Shown here in pieces: positions 2 to 10,238 of a DNA stretch of 24,476 bases. The notes under the pieces are model-generated. The model made no database searches. It was not told the origin of the DNA and was given only the letters and a program-made list of their open reading frames with translations. The translations under genes and the position numbers were made by a program. The first letter of the stretch is position 1. Each line of letters opens with the position of its first letter. Origin of the DNA: a virus; IMG/VR virus record IMGVR_UViG_3300013120_000339, positions 1 to 24,476 of that record; one strand, 5' to 3'.

Positions 2-541
2 GCGCTCTTTGTTGAAAGCGATGGGGTGTATCAGGGGCTAGACGATGTCGACCCGTGGGACATCAGCCGTGATGCCCGGTCGTACCTCGGCCCGCACCCT
101 GTCGTCGCCCACCCGCCGTGCAAGCGGTGGGGCAACTTCTGGATGGGAAGGCCGGGGGTCGACAAGGGCCGGTTCCATCTGGGCGATGATGGTGGGTGCT
201 TCGCTGCGGCTCTGGCATCCGTTCGCGCCTTTGGCGGCGTCCTTGAGCACCCGAAGGGGTCGAGAGCGTGGGGGATGCATGGCCTGACAGCGCCATCCGG
301 CGGCGGGTGGTGCGCCTCTGACTTCAAGGGTGGCTGGTCGTGCCTAGTAGACCAAGGCCACTTTGGCCACCCGTGCCCGAAATCAACGTGGCTCTACGCC
401 GTTCGGGTCGACCTGCCTTCGCTCGACTGGTCGCCGTCGGTGGCGACCGGCAGGGTGGAGAGGCAGTCCCGCCGGGACCGCCTGCGCACGCCACCGGCAT
501 TCCGAGATCTGCTCCTCAGCATGGCGAGGTCTGTCCGATGA
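2..541 (+). CDS. Methyltransferase-like phage protein, 5' end cut by window edge
   Basis: The frame is open back to base 2, and the residues ahead of the first usable start (GTG at 26) continue the same kind of sequence (ALFVESDGV leading into YQGLDDVDPWD). The gene therefore almost certainly begins outside the window. The visible part is 179 residues. Marks are VVAHPPCKRWG, then GGVLEHPKGS, then WSCLVDQGHFGHP followed by CPKSTWLYAV. The HPPC motif recalls motif IV of DNA methyltransferases, where a PPC/PPW-type loop sits at the active site, and small phage proteins of this pattern are known to me only as hypothetical or methylase-like. I see no complete SAM-binding motif, so catalytic activity is doubtful. 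It lies just upstream of a helicase and a real C5-methyltransferase, and its stop overlaps the helicase start as ATGA. Confidence 0.75.
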   Translation, partial: ALFVESDGVYQGLDDVDPWDISRDARSYLGPHPVVAHPPCKRWGNFWMGRPGVDKGRFHLGDDGGCFAAALASVRAFGGVLEHPKGSRAWGMHGLTAPSGGGWCASDFKGGWSCLVDQGHFGHPCPKSTWLYAVRVDLPSLDWSPSVATGRVERQSRRDRLRTPPAFRDLLLSMARSVR

Positions 542-3152: not shown

Positions 3153-3364
3153 ACCTCAACGCACTCGGCGCGCGCACCGTCCGCAAAGGCCTCGAGCACC
3201 GCTTCGACGAGGCCAGGATGGCGCTGGCCTTCGTCGCCCGCGTCCGGGCCGAGTCCGACCCGTCCGAAGCGCTGATGTTCGCACTTGGCCTGGTCCGGTT
3301 CGGCCCGGACGGAAGACTGGAACTGTCGGCCGATGGTCGGCGCATCGTAGAAGGGGCACCATGA
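3149..3364 (+). CDS. Small protein of unknown function (71 aa)
   Basis: ATG 3149 overlaps the methyltransferase stop (ATGA), with a purine-rich stretch (GCAGAGGCGG) upstream. The 71 residues are charged and mainly helical (FDEARMALAFVARVRAESD), ending with ADGRRIVEGAP. There is no membrane segment, cysteine or recognisable motif. Its stop overlaps the endolysin start, again ATGA, so it is translationally coupled on both sides. The tight packing supports it as a real gene. Function is not recognised. Confidence 0.7.
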   Translation: MNLNALGARTVRKGLEHRFDEARMALAFVARVRAESDPSEALMFALGLVRFGPDGRLELSADGRRIVEGAP

Positions 3365-4131
3365 GAATCGCAGACCTCAGAATCCTCGACCGAACGTTGC
3401 CGTCGGTCACCGCGCCGAGGCCGCTGTCCAGGTGCGAGTCCGTCGTGATCCATACCACCGGCCGAGGCCTCACCCGCGTGGTGCTGGACGCGCTGGGGGC
3501 GGAGAGCGCCACCGACGCGCAGGACTTCGGCGCGTCGGCCAACGCCGCCGCGGACTGGTACGAGCGGAGCGGCCACGCCTACTTCGGCCACTTCCTCGTC
3601 GGCTGGTCCGGCGCGGTGGTCGAGCTGCGCTCGGAGACGCTGCAGTGTCTCCACGCCGCGTCCCTGCCCAGCTACTACAAGCGCCGTGGCTGGGCGAAGC
3701 TGGCGAAGCCGATGGGGCAGGCGCACTGGAGGGCGCACGGCCGAGACCCGTCCGTCGTCTTCGACTGGTGGATCGCCCGGTGGGGGATGGGGATGCGCGC
3801 ATACGGCTCGCCCGTGGACCTCCCCCCCGGTGCTCACCCGAACCGGACCACCGTCGGGATCGACATGCTCCCTACCGAGCGCGGCGTCTACACCGACGCA
3901 CAGCTGGCCGCACTCCCCGCACTCGTCGCATACGTCGCGCTCCGGTGGCAGATGCCCATCGAGCGGGCGCGCGTCCTGGGGCACGCGGACATCGACCCCT
4001 GCCGGCGCGGCGTGGTGCGGCTGGCCGGCCCGAGGGGGAAGGTGGTGGGGAAGGACTGGGACCCGGGGTCAGGCGTGGACCTGGGCAAGGTGGCCGAACA
4101 GGCCGCGGCGATTGTGGCGGCCGAGTCGTGA
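3361..4131 (+). CDS. Zinc N-acetylmuramoyl-L-alanine amidase (phage endolysin)
   Basis: A 256-residue protein of the Amidase_2/peptidoglycan-recognition fold that would cut the bond between N-acetylmuramic acid and L-alanine in the cell wall at lysis. Likely zinc ligands are His31 in VVIHTTG, His208 in VLGHADIDP, and Asp234 in KDWDPG. These match the family pattern H...H...C/D (T7 lysozyme uses H, H, C). CLHAA at about 96-100 fits the conserved substrate-binding His. A segment of about 60 residues between 100 and 160 (SYYKRRGWAKL to PPGAHP) is longer than in minimal amidases. There is no signal peptide, so release would need a holin; holin-like candidates lie at 4337-5088 and at 6736-7014. 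ATG 3361 overlaps the previous stop (ATGA). Confidence 0.88.
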   Translation: MRIADLRILDRTLPSVTAPRPLSRCESVVIHTTGRGLTRVVLDALGAESATDAQDFGASANAAADWYERSGHAYFGHFLVGWSGAVVELRSETLQCLHAASLPSYYKRRGWAKLAKPMGQAHWRAHGRDPSVVFDWWIARWGMGMRAYGSPVDLPPGAHPNRTTVGIDMLPTERGVYTDAQLAALPALVAYVALRWQMPIERARVLGHADIDPCRRGVVRLAGPRGKVVGKDWDPGSGVDLGKVAEQAAAIVAAES

Positions 4132-4650: not shown

Positions 4651-5088
4651 ATGAGCGTCGCCCTTCTCTGTGTCGGCGCGCTCACTGCGGCTGGGTGGGT
4701 CCCCATCCGCGAGCGTTGCCGCGCGCCGTTCGACGGCGTCCTATGGACGCTCCATGCAGACGCCGAGCGCGAACTGCAGTTGGACGACGCCCTCCACGAT
4801 GGCGAAGCCTGCGATGCTGCGCTGGACCCGTGCGTTGAGGCGCTCGCCCTCGCCGAGCCGGCGCTGCTCTCCTGCCGCTTCGCCCTCGAGGAGGCGCGCG
4901 CCGAGCTCGCCGCCCATCCCGTCGTCGTCGATGCCGGCGGCCCTGCGTGGCTGTGGACCGCTGCCAGCCTCGCCGCGCCGTGGCTGGGCTGGGGTGCCTG
5001 CACTCTGGGTGGCGTGGACGGCGCAACATGGTGCGGCGTCGGGGCCGGAGCCGCTACCCTGGGCGTGTCCCTGCTGGTGGATTGGTGA
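4651..5088 (+). CDS. Cysteine-containing membrane protein, lysis-cassette candidate
   Basis: 145 residues from ATG 4651, two bases after the previous stop. It has a short hydrophobic N-terminus (VALLCVGALTAAG), signal-like or a membrane anchor. A helical middle of about 70 residues carries paired cysteines (GEACDAALDPC, then LLSCRF). Two hydrophobic stretches follow near the C-terminus (AWLWTAASLAAPWLGWG and GVGAGAATLGVSLLV). This would place the middle domain in the periplasm with a C-terminal hairpin in the membrane. Context suggests a role in holin or spanin function. I do not recognise the family. Confidence 0.6.
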   Translation: MSVALLCVGALTAAGWVPIRERCRAPFDGVLWTLHADAERELQLDDALHDGEACDAALDPCVEALALAEPALLSCRFALEEARAELAAHPVVVDAGGPAWLWTAASLAAPWLGWGACTLGGVDGATWCGVGAGAATLGVSLLVDW

Positions 5089-5588
5089 TGGCGCTCGACC
5101 CCTGCCGCTTGAAGCTGCCCTGGCTTGCCGATGGCCTCACCGTTGAGCAGCGGTGGGGGGTGGTGTGCGGTGCGGCGGCGGAGATGGGCTACACGTTGCA
5201 GCGCGGGCCCCTCACGCACCGCTCGATGTTCCTCCCATGGGGCAAGCTCATCGTGGCGGACACGCTGTGGGACACGCTCAAGGTGCGGGTGGCGGTGGGT
5301 GCTCACGAGCTAGTCCACGCCATCGATGCCGAGTCCTATGGCGGTGGGCGCTATCTCTGGGCGGCGCGCTACCTGGCTTGTCCCAGCGCCCGACGCGCCG
5401 CCGAGGTGCTGGGCGAGGCGGTGGAGGCCGCGACATGGGCGGCGGTGACCGGACTGAGCGTGGTCGACTCGGTGTCAGCGCCGAACGTCGGCGGCTGGGG
5501 TCCGCCATACTTCATGGGAGGCGTCCCCGACGTCCTCCGAGATCGCATCGCCCAGCTGGGCGAGATGCTGCTGGAGAGCAACCGATGA
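5088..5588 (+). CDS. HExxH zinc metallopeptidase-like protein
   Basis: 166 residues from ATG 5088, which overlaps the previous stop as TGATG. The zincin signature is HELVH at residues 73-77 (context VAVGAHELVHAID), followed by RYLWAARYL at about 88-96 and a Glu-rich helix EVLGEAVEAATW. A Glu in that helix (around 106-113) could be the third zinc ligand, as in gluzincins. The short size and the HELVHA...RYL...E layout recall small uncharacterised bacterial zincin-like proteins. There is no signal peptide or membrane segment. It sits directly after the candidate lysis membrane proteins and before two small unknowns. Substrate is unknown. Confidence 0.65.
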   Translation: MALDPCRLKLPWLADGLTVEQRWGVVCGAAAEMGYTLQRGPLTHRSMFLPWGKLIVADTLWDTLKVRVAVGAHELVHAIDAESYGGGRYLWAARYLACPSARRAAEVLGEAVEAATWAAVTGLSVVDSVSAPNVGGWGPPYFMGGVPDVLRDRIAQLGEMLLESNR

Positions 5589-5863
5589 AGCCGAAGCTAC
5601 ACGCGGAGCAGTGGGCCGATGACCTCTGCCACGACTGGCGCACCGAGTATGCCGACGAGGACCTGGCCTGGGCCGCCTACAAGCTGGACGCGAAGGCCAA
5701 CGGCGTGAAGCGTGGCCTTTCCAGGAAGCGGTGGGCGGCTCTCTTCGACGTCTCCGGCCAGCCCTCGGCAGCCCCGGCGGAGCTCCTCCCGCCGCCGCAG
5801 CCGCGGCCAGGCGTCCGTCGTCGCGTCCGTCGCCGCAACCGGCTGGTGTGGGTGGAGGAATGA
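5585..5863 (+). CDS. Small basic protein of unknown function (92 aa)
   Basis: ATG 5585 overlaps the metallopeptidase stop (ATGA). The first half is mixed charged helix with Trp residues (EQWADDLCHDW, AWAAYKL). The second half is Pro-rich and then Arg-rich (LLPPPQPRPGVRRR), which looks like a nucleic-acid-contacting tail but has no known domain. The frame is coupled on both sides to its neighbours. Function is not recognised. Confidence 0.6.
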   Translation: MKPKLHAEQWADDLCHDWRTEYADEDLAWAAYKLDAKANGVKRGLSRKRWAALFDVSGQPSAAPAELLPPPQPRPGVRRRVRRRNRLVWVEE

Positions 5864-6030
5864 AGCGGGCGCGCCTACTCGGCGAGGTCGCCGCCTATTG
5901 CGCAATCAAGCCAGAGGTCATTGCCGCGACCCGGGCGTGGCTGGCCCGTCAGGAGGCCCGCGCACCCCGCTGCCAGAACCACCCGCCCGACGACTCCGCG
6001 CGCCCACCGTCGTCCTTGCGGCCGGACTGA
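5860..6030 (+). CDS. Last small gene of the plus-strand operon (56 aa)
   Basis: ATG 5860 overlaps the previous stop as ATGA, with GGTGGAGG just upstream. The product is short: a helical N-terminus (LLGEVAAYCAIKPEVIAATRAWL) and a disordered Pro/Ser tail. Its final 82 bases overlap the 3' end of the receiver-domain gene on the other strand. It might be spurious past about residue 30, but the coupling pattern favours real translation. Confidence 0.5.
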   Translation: MKRARLLGEVAAYCAIKPEVIAATRAWLARQEARAPRCQNHPPDDSARPPSSLRPD

Positions 6031-6371
6031 CCCGCCTCGTCCAGCCACCCGGGCAGCAGCTGCGCCACCTCGGACTTGGACGCGAATAGCCGCTGTGTGG
6101 AGCGCCTCGCGCTCACGCTCCCTACCGACGTCACGCACCGCGCCAACAGGCGGAGCTTCTTGGCGGCGCGCAGGACGTCTCGCCCCGTGCCTGGTGCCAT
6201 GTACAGGTCAGTGATGGTGAGGTCTGGGCGGTGAAGGCGCATCTTGCGCATGGCCTCGCGCCCGGACTGGGCGGTGATGATGACCGCGTTCGGCGCGGCC
6301 GCTTGTGCCGCGTCCACGAGCTCGGCGAGCTGCTGCGGGTTGTCGTCGGCCACCAGAATTGTCTCAACCAT
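5949..6371 (-). CDS. Stand-alone response-regulator receiver (REC) domain protein
   Basis: 140 residues. The CheY-like pattern is clear: TILVADD with the acidic pair Asp9-Asp10, then NAVIITA, SGREAMRKM, PDLTITDL with the phospho-acceptor position Asp55, the loop YMAPGTG, CVTSVGS with Thr81/Ser82, and Lys99 in FASKSE. No DNA-binding or enzyme output domain follows; the last 25 residues are low-complexity (Gly/Arg/Ser). The region between strand 4 and Lys99 is short and may be degenerate. ATG 6371 has GGAG upstream and overlaps the preceding gene by eight bases. Known family role: accepts phosphate from a histidine kinase. There is no kinase in the window, so it would have to listen to a host kinase or act as a decoy. 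It is the last gene of the late operon, next to holin-like genes. Confidence 0.75.
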   Translation of the reverse strand: MVETILVADDNPQQLAELVDAAQAAAPNAVIITAQSGREAMRKMRLHRPDLTITDLYMAPGTGRDVLRAAKKLRLLARCVTSVGSVSARRSTQRLFASKSEVAQLLPGWLDEAGQSGRKDDGGRAESSGGWFWQRGARAS

Positions 6372-6678
6372 TGGAGCTCCTGTCCTGAATCGGCGCGCCC
6401 CCGACGCCGTCCATTCTTCCATGGAGCCGGGCCACATCACGCCGCGCGTCGTCCAGTTCCTTTTCAAGCCCACCGCGGGCTGCCTCCGCCTCCGCGAGTC
6501 TCGCGTCCATCGTAGCGGCGTCGGCGAAGTCGCCCACCTCCAGCTTTTCGATCCGGGCCTTGAGCTTCGTGTGCTCCTCGGGTAGCGAAGCGATGGCGCG
6601 GAGCCGGGTGAACACCCACCCGCCGAACGCCGAAGCGACCGAGCCCGCAACCAAGAGTGCTATCGCGTTCGCGTCCAC
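6364..6678 (-). CDS. Membrane-anchored coiled-coil protein (spanin- or holin-like)
   Basis: 104 residues from GTG 6678, chosen because GGAGG lies about six bases upstream. A TTG at 6723 would add 15 residues without a better site. One hydrophobic segment at about 5-22 (AIALLVAGSVASAFGGWVF) is followed by a long heptad-like region (LPEEHTKLKARIEKLE, then ARLAEAEAARGGLEKELDDA). A single anchor plus coiled coil is the layout of the inner-membrane spanin (Rz) and of several small phage lysis proteins. It lies between a holin-like gene and the receiver gene. Lysis function is inferred. Confidence 0.65.
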   Translation of the reverse strand: MDANAIALLVAGSVASAFGGWVFTRLRAIASLPEEHTKLKARIEKLEVGDFADAATMDARLAEAEAARGGLEKELDDARRDVARLHGRMDGVGGAPIQDRSSNG

Positions 6679-6735
6679 GGTGTTGCCTCCGGTCGTGGCC
6701 TGCCAAATATGATCCCAGCGCAATCACGCCGAGGC

Positions 6736-7014
6736 TCACCCCGCGGACTCGGCCGGCGGCGCGTCCTTTTTGCCTGTCTTGCGGTGCCGGTGCTCGGCGG
6801 CGTTGCCCCCGACCATGGCGGCATAGAGGCCGGCGATGGTGCCGAGCCCGAACTGAACGATGGACGCGGCCGGCCCGTGCGCGACATGGGGGAGCGCCAA
6901 CAAGAGCGCCTCGCCTCCGAGGGTGACCAGGACCGCCGCGCCGAGAGCGCGCGTCAGGCCGGTCAGCTTCCGCTGCCCCTTCGATGCGTCACCGCCGTTG
7001 AACCAACCGATCAC
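6736..7014 (-). CDS. Two-helix membrane protein, candidate holin
   Basis: 92 residues from GTG 7014, which overlaps the stop of the large tail gene as GTGA. There are two transmembrane segments, about 23-45 (ALGAAVLVTLGGEALLLALP) and 52-71 (IVQFGLGTIAGLYAAMVGG), and then a basic hydrophilic tail (HRHRKTGKKD). Two helices, small size, a charged C-terminus and a position after the tail genes fit a holin, which makes the membrane pores that release the endolysin. The endolysin itself is far away on the other strand. A small tail-linked membrane protein is the alternative. Confidence 0.62.
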   Translation of the reverse strand: MIGWFNGGDASKGQRKLTGLTRALGAAVLVTLGGEALLLALPHVAHGPAASIVQFGLGTIAGLYAAMVGGNAAEHRHRKTGKKDAPPAESAG

Positions 7015-10000
7015 GTCATGTCCTTCGCTGCGTCCGCGCTTGCGCCCAGCGTAGCGGCCGCGTCGGCCATGTGCGCATAGAGCCGGTTGACCACCTGGTC
7101 GTAGCTGCCCGGGATGATGATGTCGCCCGCGACTAGGCCATGCGCACCCGTGAACGTGATATGGCTCACGCCGTCGGTGGACATGACGGTCAGCGCGACG
7201 GCCGCGTCTCGGTCCGCCGGGTTGAATCCGCGCACCTGCTGGGTGGCGAAAAACCCGTGGATGTCTCGGAACGGCTCGCCCGTCACCGGGTGGGTCGCCG
7301 GCGTGAAGTCGCTGAAGTCGATTCTGACGGTGGTCGGGTCGACGACCGCGGTGACCTCGGCCGACGCTGCCCACCCTGCCCCGTTGACGCCGTAGTGGTA
7401 CATGAGCACCTCAGCGCCCTCGCCCCAGTAGTCGATGGTCCACTCCATCACGCGGCCGGCGTTGAAACTGACGGCGGTCCCGTCCTCGCCGATGGCGCTC
7501 AGGCCTACGGCGCCGTAGGCCCGCAGGAACCTCGAGGCCACCAGGTAGACCGAGCCGAGGTGGCCGAAGATGGCGTCGCCCGTGGCGATTCGCCCGCGCC
7601 ATGTGCGGCGCTCGTCGCCAAACTGCACCATCAGGCGGGACAGGATGTCTTGGACCGCCGCCTCCGCGCCGCCCGGGGCTGCCGGGTCCGCGACGATGCC
7701 GAGGAGGTTGAGTTCCACTTCCTCGCCGTCGCCGTGGGCGGTGATGGAGGCCTGGTCGTACTGGATCACCGGCAGCGGCTCGTCGTTGTCCTCGGCCGGG
7801 TGGCTGAGGTTGAAGACCCACTTATTGACGATCTCGTCGTCGGTGCCGTTCTCGGGCACCGGATCCACCAGCCAGTCGCCGTCGGCGATGGACCGGCTGA
7901 TATCGGCGGTTGGGTCGGCGGTGCTGATGGTGGACAGCGTCTCCATGGGGTTCTCGGGCCCGACGGACACGAGAGTGAGCATGGAGTCCCCCGTGTCGGG
8001 GTCGATGCGCGAGACGATGGCCGCGCCCATGGCCATCAGCATGTCCTCGAGGACCTCCCGCACGGTCTCGCCGTCGGGATAGGTGAGGGTCCATCGGTCC
8101 ATCCCAGGGGTGTCGGGGAACCGCTCGAAGCTGGCCACATCCACGTCGGGGCTGGTGGATGCGTCGCCCACCAGGTTCGCGCCGATGGGGAGTACGTCAT
8201 AGACGCTGTCGTTGATGAGCCCGCCGCCGCCGCTGAGGAGCAGCTGGAGCAGGACCACCGCGGGGCGCTCTGCGTCGAAGCGGATCGCCGACCGGATCGC
8301 TGCCGGCTCCTGGCCCGGCCAGTTGCCGAAGCTGGGAGTTCGGTAGGGGTCCTGGATGGTGAGCCGCCAGCCGATGCTAACGCCGCCGTCGAAGACCTCC
8401 GTTGCGGCAGTGACGGAGACGTCGTGCGTCCGTTCCTCCTCGCCGTCCCAGTAGGTGACGGTCATTTTGTGGACGCCGCCGGGGGGCACTACGACCTGGT
8501 CCGACACAAGGATGGAAGGCTCGCCTGTCTGGTAGAACGCCGACGCGATACCGCGGATCGGGATGCGCTGCTCGGCGGGGCCCGCCGGGACACGGCCGGT
8601 GTCGGCCTCGGTGAACAGCGCCACCTCTCGCACCCACTCGGCGCGCCTGGGGCCGCGCCACGGCCCGCGCGCGCCGATGACCCCGTGGTGCCGGAAGGGC
8701 CGCGCCTCGTCTCCGGGGTCGGCGAAGTCCAGCCCATACCAGAGGTGGCGGAACAGGTCCGGCGGGTCGTCAGGGCCGGAAGCCGCAGCAGGACTGGACG
8801 GTGTGCGCCACGCCTTGAAGTTGGCATGCGGGAATCCGTAGGCCTCCGGCACTGCCTGCCAGTCGGACCAGAGCAGGATCCGAAGCGCACGCCGGTAGTT
8901 GTCCACGTTGTAGGCGCTCAACAGGGCCGGCCCGTCGTCGCCCTCCGCGTCGATGGTCATGTTTGCCCACATGCCACCCGCGCCGGCAAAGGACCGCGGC
9001 ACCCACGACGCCTGGGCCGCATCGACGGCCGCGTCCGGCCAGCGGGCGAGCGTTTGAGTCCCCACTGGGCCGGGCGCGACATCGACGGGGATGACCTCCA
9101 CCGCCGGCGCTGAGTTGATCAGGTCGCCGGCCGCGCCCAGCCGCGTCGGCCCCGGTGCGGCGATGATGAACTGATCGTCGCCCGCCGGGCCCGTCCCGAT
9201 GCCGTATCCGGTGACCACCTCGAAAGCGCCGCCGTGATCGTTCCACAGCTGGCCGCGACGTGGATGCTGGCCAGGGAGTCCCGTGTCCATCGTGCCCTGG
9301 TGCGGGGCGAGTTGGCCCGGTGCCACGTTGTAGACACCCGCTGCGCCTGCGTTGGCCGAGTGCGCCACCGATGTCGCGTCGCCCTGCCATGCCCACCGCT
9401 GGGCGTGGACCATCGTGCAGGCGTGCGGATAGGTCCATTCGTGCCAGTTGTCGCGGAGACCCGTGCTCACGTTGTTGTTGACCATGGCGGTGTCCGTCAA
9501 CGTGAGCAGATCGATGACCTCCACCTCTAGCCGTTTCGGGGACCCTGTCTCACGGGGCGAGCGCTCGATGAAGCCTCGCTTGATCTCCACCCATTCGCTC
9601 AGGGTGCCGTCGCTTCGGATCTGCGCCATGTGCACCGATGCGCGGCGGGTCCGCCAGAACACCACCTCATCGATGATGACCAGCGGGACCTTGCCGCCCG
9701 CCCCGTCGACGCGGTGGACCTGCGGCTGCGTGCCTGCGACGGCGCGCGTGACTGTGAATCGGTAGGGGTCGGCCGGCGCGCCGGTGCCAAGCTTCGCGGT
9801 TGCCCACATCGTCTCGAGGCCGACGTGGATCAGGGTCGGGACGGTGACAGAAGCGTGGGAGCGGTCGATCTCGACGGTGCCCGCCCCAGTGGCCTGGTCG
9901 AGCTTCGTCAGCAGCTGCGCCCAGAACGCCGCCGCCTTCTGTGTGATGCGGCTGAGTACCCGTCCCGCTTCGTTCACGCTGCGCGGGTCGTCGGTAGTGG

Positions 10001-10238
10001 CCAGAGAGACGGTCATCGGCCCCTGCTCTGCCACGCCGCCCTTGGGGTCGAGTCTCCCGGTGACCGAGCTCACCGCCACCAGCCCCGGATTGTCGTCGTA
10101 GGAGAGCGCGCCGCCCGTGCCGGGCACGCTCTCCAGCGTCGGCGCGACGGTGCCGGAGTAGTAGCGCACCTTGAGGCCCGCCACAGTGAGCCGGAAGACG
10201 CTGCGCCGGTTGATGTCTGCGTTCTCGCCGAGGCTCAC
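7011..10238 (-). CDS. Large tail-tip/host-contact structural protein (1075 aa)
   Basis: The largest gene, starting at GTG 10238 in a GTGA overlap. It lies at the distal end of the tail cluster where siphophages encode the tail hub, tip or central fibre. No known domain is readable. The sequence is beta-rich with many Asp/Gly/Pro turns. The N-terminal 130 residues include a helical stretch (VLSRITQKAAAFWAQLL), the middle holds many Trp-rich segments (DNWHEWTYPHACTMVHAQ), and the C-terminal third has PTADISRSIADGDWL and short beta repeats. The length and position fit a tail-tip or receptor-contact protein. There is no obvious peptidase or lysozyme motif. Structural role is confident, exact role is not. 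Confidence 0.7.
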   Translation of the reverse strand: MSLGENADINRRSVFRLTVAGLKVRYYSGTVAPTLESVPGTGGALSYDDNPGLVAVSSVTGRLDPKGGVAEQGPMTVSLATTDDPRSVNEAGRVLSRITQKAAAFWAQLLTKLDQATGAGTVEIDRSHASVTVPTLIHVGLETMWATAKLGTGAPADPYRFTVTRAVAGTQPQVHRVDGAGGKVPLVIIDEVVFWRTRRASVHMAQIRSDGTLSEWVEIKRGFIERSPRETGSPKRLEVEVIDLLTLTDTAMVNNNVSTGLRDNWHEWTYPHACTMVHAQRWAWQGDATSVAHSANAGAAGVYNVAPGQLAPHQGTMDTGLPGQHPRRGQLWNDHGGAFEVVTGYGIGTGPAGDDQFIIAAPGPTRLGAAGDLINSAPAVEVIPVDVAPGPVGTQTLARWPDAAVDAAQASWVPRSFAGAGGMWANMTIDAEGDDGPALLSAYNVDNYRRALRILLWSDWQAVPEAYGFPHANFKAWRTPSSPAAASGPDDPPDLFRHLWYGLDFADPGDEARPFRHHGVIGARGPWRGPRRAEWVREVALFTEADTGRVPAGPAEQRIPIRGIASAFYQTGEPSILVSDQVVVPPGGVHKMTVTYWDGEEERTHDVSVTAATEVFDGGVSIGWRLTIQDPYRTPSFGNWPGQEPAAIRSAIRFDAERPAVVLLQLLLSGGGGLINDSVYDVLPIGANLVGDASTSPDVDVASFERFPDTPGMDRWTLTYPDGETVREVLEDMLMAMGAAIVSRIDPDTGDSMLTLVSVGPENPMETLSTISTADPTADISRSIADGDWLVDPVPENGTDDEIVNKWVFNLSHPAEDNDEPLPVIQYDQASITAHGDGEEVELNLLGIVADPAAPGGAEAAVQDILSRLMVQFGDERRTWRGRIATGDAIFGHLGSVYLVASRFLRAYGAVGLSAIGEDGTAVSFNAGRVMEWTIDYWGEGAEVLMYHYGVNGAGWAASAEVTAVVDPTTVRIDFSDFTPATHPVTGEPFRDIHGFFATQQVRGFNPADRDAAVALTVMSTDGVSHITFTGAHGLVAGDIIIPGSYDQVVNRLYAHMADAAATLGASADAAKDMT

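Follow-up and report, generated by a model that had tools for sequence, protein, structure and literature searches.

What is a two-component receiver doing at the end of a phage late operon? The question is raised by a virus record of 24,476 bases, analysed at its full length and called the window here. The final gene of its late operon (5949..6371, minus strand) encodes a stand-alone receiver (REC) protein of 140 aa. Most accounts of phage lysis have its timing set by an intrinsic holin clock, and few inputs from outside are known, T4 lysis inhibition and quorum-sensing switches being examples. If the reading developed below is true, a receiver in a lysis cassette would link bacterial two-component signalling directly, at the molecular level, to the time at which the cell lyses.

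Genes around the receiver

The minus-strand late genes of the window start with portal (phrog_113), protease (phrog_53) and major capsid (phrog_1005) genes. After the capsid gene come presumed tail genes, a holin-like gene with two transmembrane (TM) segments, a gene for a protein with a TM segment and a coiled coil (TM-CC), and the receiver gene as the last. The distal end of the tail block encodes a large protein without a family match (7011..10238, minus), for which a tail role is suggested by position. The stop of this gene overlaps the start of the holin-like gene (6736..7014, minus; GTG at 7014). The product of the latter, a protein of 92 aa with two predicted TM segments and a basic C-terminus, had no significant family match in profile searches and is called holin-like on its topology. 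The TM-CC gene (6364..6678, minus) encodes 104 aa, with an N-terminal TM segment followed by a charged coiled coil. Its start was revised to the GTG at 6678, which has a GGAGG at 6690-6686 and was preferred over the TTG at 6723 of the open reading frame list. The protein weakly matches the Rz-like spanin family phrog_2466 (E=1.8e-4), and the last 8 nt of its gene overlap the start of the receiver gene. The first-pass annotation had placed the receiver directly after holin-like and coiled-coil membrane genes, and this order is borne out.

A converging operon on the plus strand encodes an endolysin, an N-acetylmuramoyl-L-alanine amidase (3361..4131; Amidase_2, E=1.2e-10). The last member of this operon, a short ORF (5860..6030), converges on the receiver gene and overlaps the part that encodes its C-terminal tail by 82 nt. 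The window receiver is encoded among lysis genes, with the holin-like and TM-CC genes upstream and Amidase_2 in the converging operon, and the same association is clearer in the other phages described below. Downstream of the endolysin gene, positions 5088-5588 (plus) encode an orphan without a family match, whose motif HELVHA resembles that of metallopeptidases.

The receiver ORF has its ATG at 6371 and a ribosome-binding site, AGGAG, that can be read from the sequence within the 3' end of the preceding gene (6377..6381, minus). The N-terminus of the 140-aa product is MVETILVADDNPQQ. Its third-position GC content (GC3 = 0.87) matches that of the neighbouring genes. When the remaining late genes were used to train a codon-usage score, the receiver frame came out top in all segments tested but one (6191-6102), where the score was near zero in two frames and the receiver frame was still the best on its own strand. 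A frameshift inside the gene is disfavoured by this score. As both codon-position GC and codon usage favour the receiver frame, the C-terminal half of the protein, which lies outside the profile coverage, is unlikely to be a frameshift product. The ORF is a genuine gene for a stand-alone receiver.

The receiver domain

PF00072 covers residues 5-73 of the protein with E=4.5e-8; its score of 33.7 bits exceeds the curated threshold of 30.2. This region is also matched by several receiver sequences from PHROG, NCBIfam and PDB, some of which extend to residues 81-104. The active-site columns of the receiver alignment are filled by D9, D10, D55, T81 and K99, and S82 is also present. The acidic pair after beta-1, the Asp ending beta-3, the Thr/Ser at beta-4 and the Lys at beta-5 are thus all in place, and the profile match and the alignment agree with the original description of a stand-alone CheY-like receiver with these residues. 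The absence of an output domain, also claimed at first, is upheld by the length of 140 aa and by PF00072 being the only family above its cut-off.

An AlphaFold model was computed from an alignment of five sequences, the window receiver and four receivers from other viral contigs. It has a pLDDT of 79.7 and a pTM of 0.74, with an average above 90 for residues 1-80, and residues 121-140 are disordered. The predicted order of elements, b1-a1-b2-a2-b3-a3-b4-(no a4)-b5-a5, comprises five strands and helices 1, 2, 3 and 5, so that a receiver fold is predicted in which helix 4 is absent or of low confidence. A structure search with the model matched 409 PDB chains at E<=0.001. The best was the NarL receiver 3eul (E=4.2e-7), and every one of the listed matches was a receiver or a receiver-containing protein. 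The best viral match of the window receiver was the receiver of Alteromonas phage V22 (E=4.6e-6). The alignment supplied to AlphaFold itself held receivers and hence favoured the fold, which makes the structural support not fully independent; folding from the single sequence gave a pLDDT of 42 and no usable model. Taken by its sequence, the protein is probably a single-domain receiver, with phosphorylation by a histidine kinase or acetyl phosphate as a prediction.

Like CheY, DivK, Spo0F and Osp, the window protein appears to have the receiver fold without an output domain, and it shares the acidic pair, the phosphoacceptor Asp, the Thr/Ser and the Lys with single-domain response regulators. 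It differs from them in being encoded by a phage, at the end of a late operon, together with a TM-CC partner and with no kinase encoded nearby, and also in its short alpha-4 and in a KS that replaces the usual KP. The cREC domain of jumbo phages is likewise a divergent phage receiver (PMC7824862). The cREC domain goes with NAD/ADP-ribose enzymes, never with two-component systems (PMC7824862), whereas no family match to NAD/ADPr-processing genes, the hallmark of cREC, was found among the window neighbours searched.

Relatives of the window phage

The searches of phages, viral contigs and genome contigs brought up no homologue of the window receiver. Queries with the tail protein, the capsid, the portal and one plus-strand gene likewise found no relatives among the viral contigs. 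A DNA pattern for LVADDNP found a single viral-contig sequence, a capsid-like gene, by chance. A phrog_12600 protein encoded at 26-541 (plus) has 22 viral-contig relatives with 38-69% identity. The 22 contigs were rejected as late-region relatives of the window phage, since they share no late genes with it: they carry neither a receiver nor a matching portal, and with 26-541 removed they share no window gene beyond one methyltransferase match. The 26-541 protein looks like a freely exchanged gene, as its 22 relatives share almost nothing else with the window phage.

TM-CC and receiver genes are paired in other phages

For the wider search, receiver sequences alone were used as queries, so that gene context could not bias the matches. 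A scan of viral contigs for receivers gave six loci, and the receiver type found at one of them, in the uncultivated phage L027, was then searched together with its relatives in annotated phages. In seven other phage lineages, a TM-CC gene is directly followed by a stand-alone receiver gene, and most of these pairs are located within or next to lysis genes. These lineages comprise T7-like, N4-like, siphovirus and myovirus Alteromonas phages and one uncultivated phage. The link to lysis genes drawn in the first-pass annotation therefore extends beyond the window, as does the proximity to holin genes. The accompanying statement that receivers are rare in phage late operons is right in that they are uncommon overall, but they recur in Alteromonas phages.

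The arrangements vary around a constant pair. In the T7-like Alteromonas phages H4/4 and R8W, a tail fibre gene is followed by genes for a class II holin, the TM-CC protein and the receiver; the two-TM gene of H4/4 carries the class II holin annotation. The order of tail gene, two-TM holin-like gene, TM-CC and REC is common to these two phages and the window. The siphoviruses R9Y1, R9Y2 and R9Y3 have TM-CC, receiver and GH108 lysozyme genes before the operon end, and siphovirus PB15 has TM-CC, receiver, an annotated carboxypeptidase and a GTA_holin_3TM protein before the operon end. In myovirus V22 and schitovirus PT15-A5, TM-CC and receiver are followed by an Rz-like spanin; the TM segments predicted in their TM-CC proteins are short, and the one of V22 scores 1.31. 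In L027, a gene for a protein with coiled coil and TM segment is followed by those for a receiver of 123 aa and a GH108 endolysin, with a terminase downstream, and L028 has the same genes. In PT11-V19 (OP751378.1, L036:4727-5450), TM-CC and receiver form a two-gene unit that stands alone between opposite-strand genes. The stop and start codons of the two genes overlap by 4 nt in H4/4, R8W, R9Y, PB15 and L027, by 8 nt in the window and by 11 nt in PT11-V19; in V22 they are separated by a 2-nt gap.

The pairing of TM-CC and REC is not a general property of stand-alone receivers. In a scan of genome contigs, only 2 of 42 had an overlapping upstream TM-CC gene, both on phage-like contigs (L042 and L043). 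The other 40 had none, and their usual neighbours, named from reading the sequences, are FliN/FliY-, STAS- or CheD-like. In the opposite direction, homologues of the H4/4 TM-CC protein were found in six phage records, all six with a receiver adjoining. The two phage-like contigs (PBFM01000045.1 and NHBR02000063.1; 43 and 49 kb) are binned in Neomarinimicrobiota and Muricauda genomes. These bins probably hold stray phage contigs, judging by the resemblance of the receivers to those of Alteromonas R9Y and H4/4.

The TM-CC loci also resemble the cassettes of XhlA-type 'hemolysins' and holins, in which a small one-TM coiled-coil protein is found beside the holin and endolysin. XhlA-type proteins act with the holin in prophage PBSX. 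The PB15 TM-CC protein falls into phrog_937 (E=1.8e-16), whose label 'hemolysin' is one used for XhlA-type proteins acting with holins. The window TM-CC protein differs in having an N-terminal TM segment and in matching a spanin family only, and that weakly. The classical XhlA-type cassette is not known to include a receiver.

Published annotations

The receivers of H4/4 (gp44), R8W (gp48), R9Y2 (gp12), PB15 (response regulator), V22 (gp30) and PT15-A5 (gp11) are stand-alone and follow a TM-CC gene, as in the window. The published accounts treat Alteromonas phage receivers as auxiliary metabolic genes or as part of a host-recognition module (PMC8228385, PMC7289586, PMC10579305). R8W gp48 is annotated as PhoB (PMC8228385), and V22 gp30 and A5 gp11 are presented as class II auxiliary metabolic genes of the CheY-like type, while their neighbours are left without a function (PMC7289586, PMC10579305). 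According to such annotations, the genes would be host-derived PhoB or CheY genes that adapt the phosphate metabolism or signalling of the host. We consider this highly improbable. The 140-aa window receiver has no C-terminal OmpR/PhoB DNA-binding domain, and the relatives, of about 130-153 aa, end shortly after the receiver, with no room for such a domain and hence for a PhoB-type action on DNA. Moreover, the genes are located among lysis genes, and the downstream neighbours of the V22 and A5 receivers look like Rz-like spanins. If the lysis reading is true, the PhoB/CheY auxiliary-metabolic-gene reading of these receivers would be corrected. In the titles and abstracts of the open-access literature, we found no receiver in a phage lysis cassette except for the R8W annotation; an earlier description in subscription papers is possible.

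Evolution of the lysis-linked receivers

A tree was built from the lysis-linked phage receivers and 23 receivers from genome contigs. In it, the receivers of the Alteromonas lysis loci group together as a single clade, with a support of 0.985, that spans podo-, sipho- and myoviruses. The module thus appears to move between unrelated phages. The L027 receiver is a weak sister of this clade (0.48). The window receiver forms a long isolated branch outside of it, and has 16-25% identity to the Alteromonas CheY-like and PhoB-like proteins in a MAFFT alignment that misplaces its C-terminal half. It may therefore be an independent acquisition: either the window phage acquired a receiver separately, with a like result, or its receiver has diverged too far to be placed. 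Six of the eight lineages infect the same host genus and have receivers of a single clade, so there may be only two or three independent origins.

The isolated position of the window receiver could also mean that it is a chance passenger, a captured receiver decaying without function at the end of the operon. The lack of a homologue in the collections searched, the degraded alpha-4 and the long branch would fit with this explanation. However, the catalytic residues are all kept, the composition of the coding frame is normal, the gene has its own ribosome-binding site, and the same arrangement is present in other phages. A decaying passenger is thus very unlikely.

A lysis-cassette module responsive to the host?

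We propose that TM-CC and REC belong together as a module of the lysis cassette, through which a receiver phosphorylated by the host adjusts the holin complex, and put the probability of this reading at roughly 40%. According to this model, the TM-CC protein and a cytoplasmic stand-alone receiver would be made from overlapping genes as a two-gene module, and we infer that the receiver binds the coiled coil of the TM-CC protein beside the holin. The charge distribution suggests that the coiled coil faces the cytoplasm in the forms with N-terminal TM segment, although the window protein shows this charge pattern only weakly. A histidine kinase, presumably one of the host, or acetyl phosphate would phosphorylate D55 and thereby change the complex of TM-CC protein, receiver and holin. 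The signalling state of the host could then advance or delay holin triggering, and with it the time of lysis. The recurrence of the pairing suggests that, in some phages, burst time responds to the signalling of the host. The cultured Alteromonas phages, with their published genomes, make this route testable. A broader version of the proposal is that the TM-CC/receiver pair, present in several morphotypes, is a hitherto undescribed class of lysis regulators that couple holin triggering to the host phosphorelay, with the physiology or population state of the host timing lysis. This generalization is tentative and rather doubtful.

Some features of the window speak against the module there. The AlphaFold model has no alpha-4, or a degraded one, although this helix usually contributes to the output face. 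In addition, the endolysin is encoded in the opposite operon. As the window receiver lies outside the Alteromonas clade, the likeness of its context to the Alteromonas cassettes may be coincidence or convergence.

The role of phosphorylation is a separate issue. The full D-D-D-T/S-K set is found in eight of the nine lysis-linked receivers aligned. The conservation of Asp55 and Lys99, a point raised by the first-pass annotation, was assessed in this set, as no true homologues of the window receiver were found, and it is supported there. The exception is the degenerate receiver of PT11-V19, which has lost the phosphoacceptor Asp (D55) and the Lys, so that phosphorylation is not needed at least in this case. 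From its sequence, PT11-V19 suggests that the module can stand alone and can dispense with phosphorylation. The receivers may then be pseudo-receiver adaptors, phosphorylation-independent partners that block a host histidine kinase, as Osp does to CckA, or that scaffold the TM-CC protein. Osp acts on CckA as a direct inhibitor and remains functional as the D51N variant (PMC9430884). The retained TM-CC pairing in PT11-V19 and the window receiver without helix 4 would also suit an adaptor. The retention of the catalytic set in the other eight receivers argues against this model, and Osp is no close parallel for them, since it has neither the acidic pair nor the lysine. Given PT11-V19 and the Osp precedent, an adaptor that acts without phosphorylation is a serious rival, if an unlikely one.

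Where phosphorylation does occur, the phosphoryl groups would presumably come from a host kinase or from acetyl phosphate. A profile search found no HATPase_c kinase domain in the window record, consistent with the earlier claim that the kinase lies outside of it, and none was found in the 11 phage records with receivers, which have one receiver per record. The lack of a kinase domain is predicted for a receiver that depends on a host kinase, but is no proof of such dependence. It would also be expected for a phosphate sink or decoy, an abundant late receiver that drains phosphoryl groups from host kinases and is encoded in the lysis cassette merely as a convenient, highly expressed place. Sink receivers have been discussed for bacteria, and the late operon position and the intact phosphoacceptor residues are as a sink would require. 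Yet a sink leaves the recurrent upstream TM-CC gene, often with overlapping codons, unexplained, and reprogramming a host shortly before its lysis would be of little obvious value. We therefore consider a sink quite unlikely and prefer the host-phosphorylated module.

Phage receivers outside lysis cassettes

Receiver matches in unannotated 'phage' records that resemble bacterial contigs (OR84xxxx-OR85xxxx, OQ572403) were left out of the count. Such bacterial-looking records account for most of the receiver matches in the phage collection; Pseudomonas phage Y1 (OQ572403), for example, shows bacterial genes (chemotaxis and prfB-like). The non-lysis cases counted are Stenotrophomonas phage Bhz63 and the receivers without a TM-CC partner at L029, L030 and L025. 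Bhz63 (OR797046.1, L037:4986-6532) encodes a full-length PhoP-like response regulator of 239 aa outside the lysis genes. The adjoining protein is noted as PRK11100 superfamily, though no HATPase_c domain was detected. On the viral contig L030 (4432-5357), a stand-alone receiver without the lysine directly follows a HAD_SAK_1 phosphatase-like gene. Finally, a protein of 321 aa on the viral contigs L025/L026 (4992-5957), encoded beside a DNA methyltransferase-like gene, combines a receiver with a C-terminal region that reads like HD-GYP, and may be a phage c-di-GMP phosphodiesterase.
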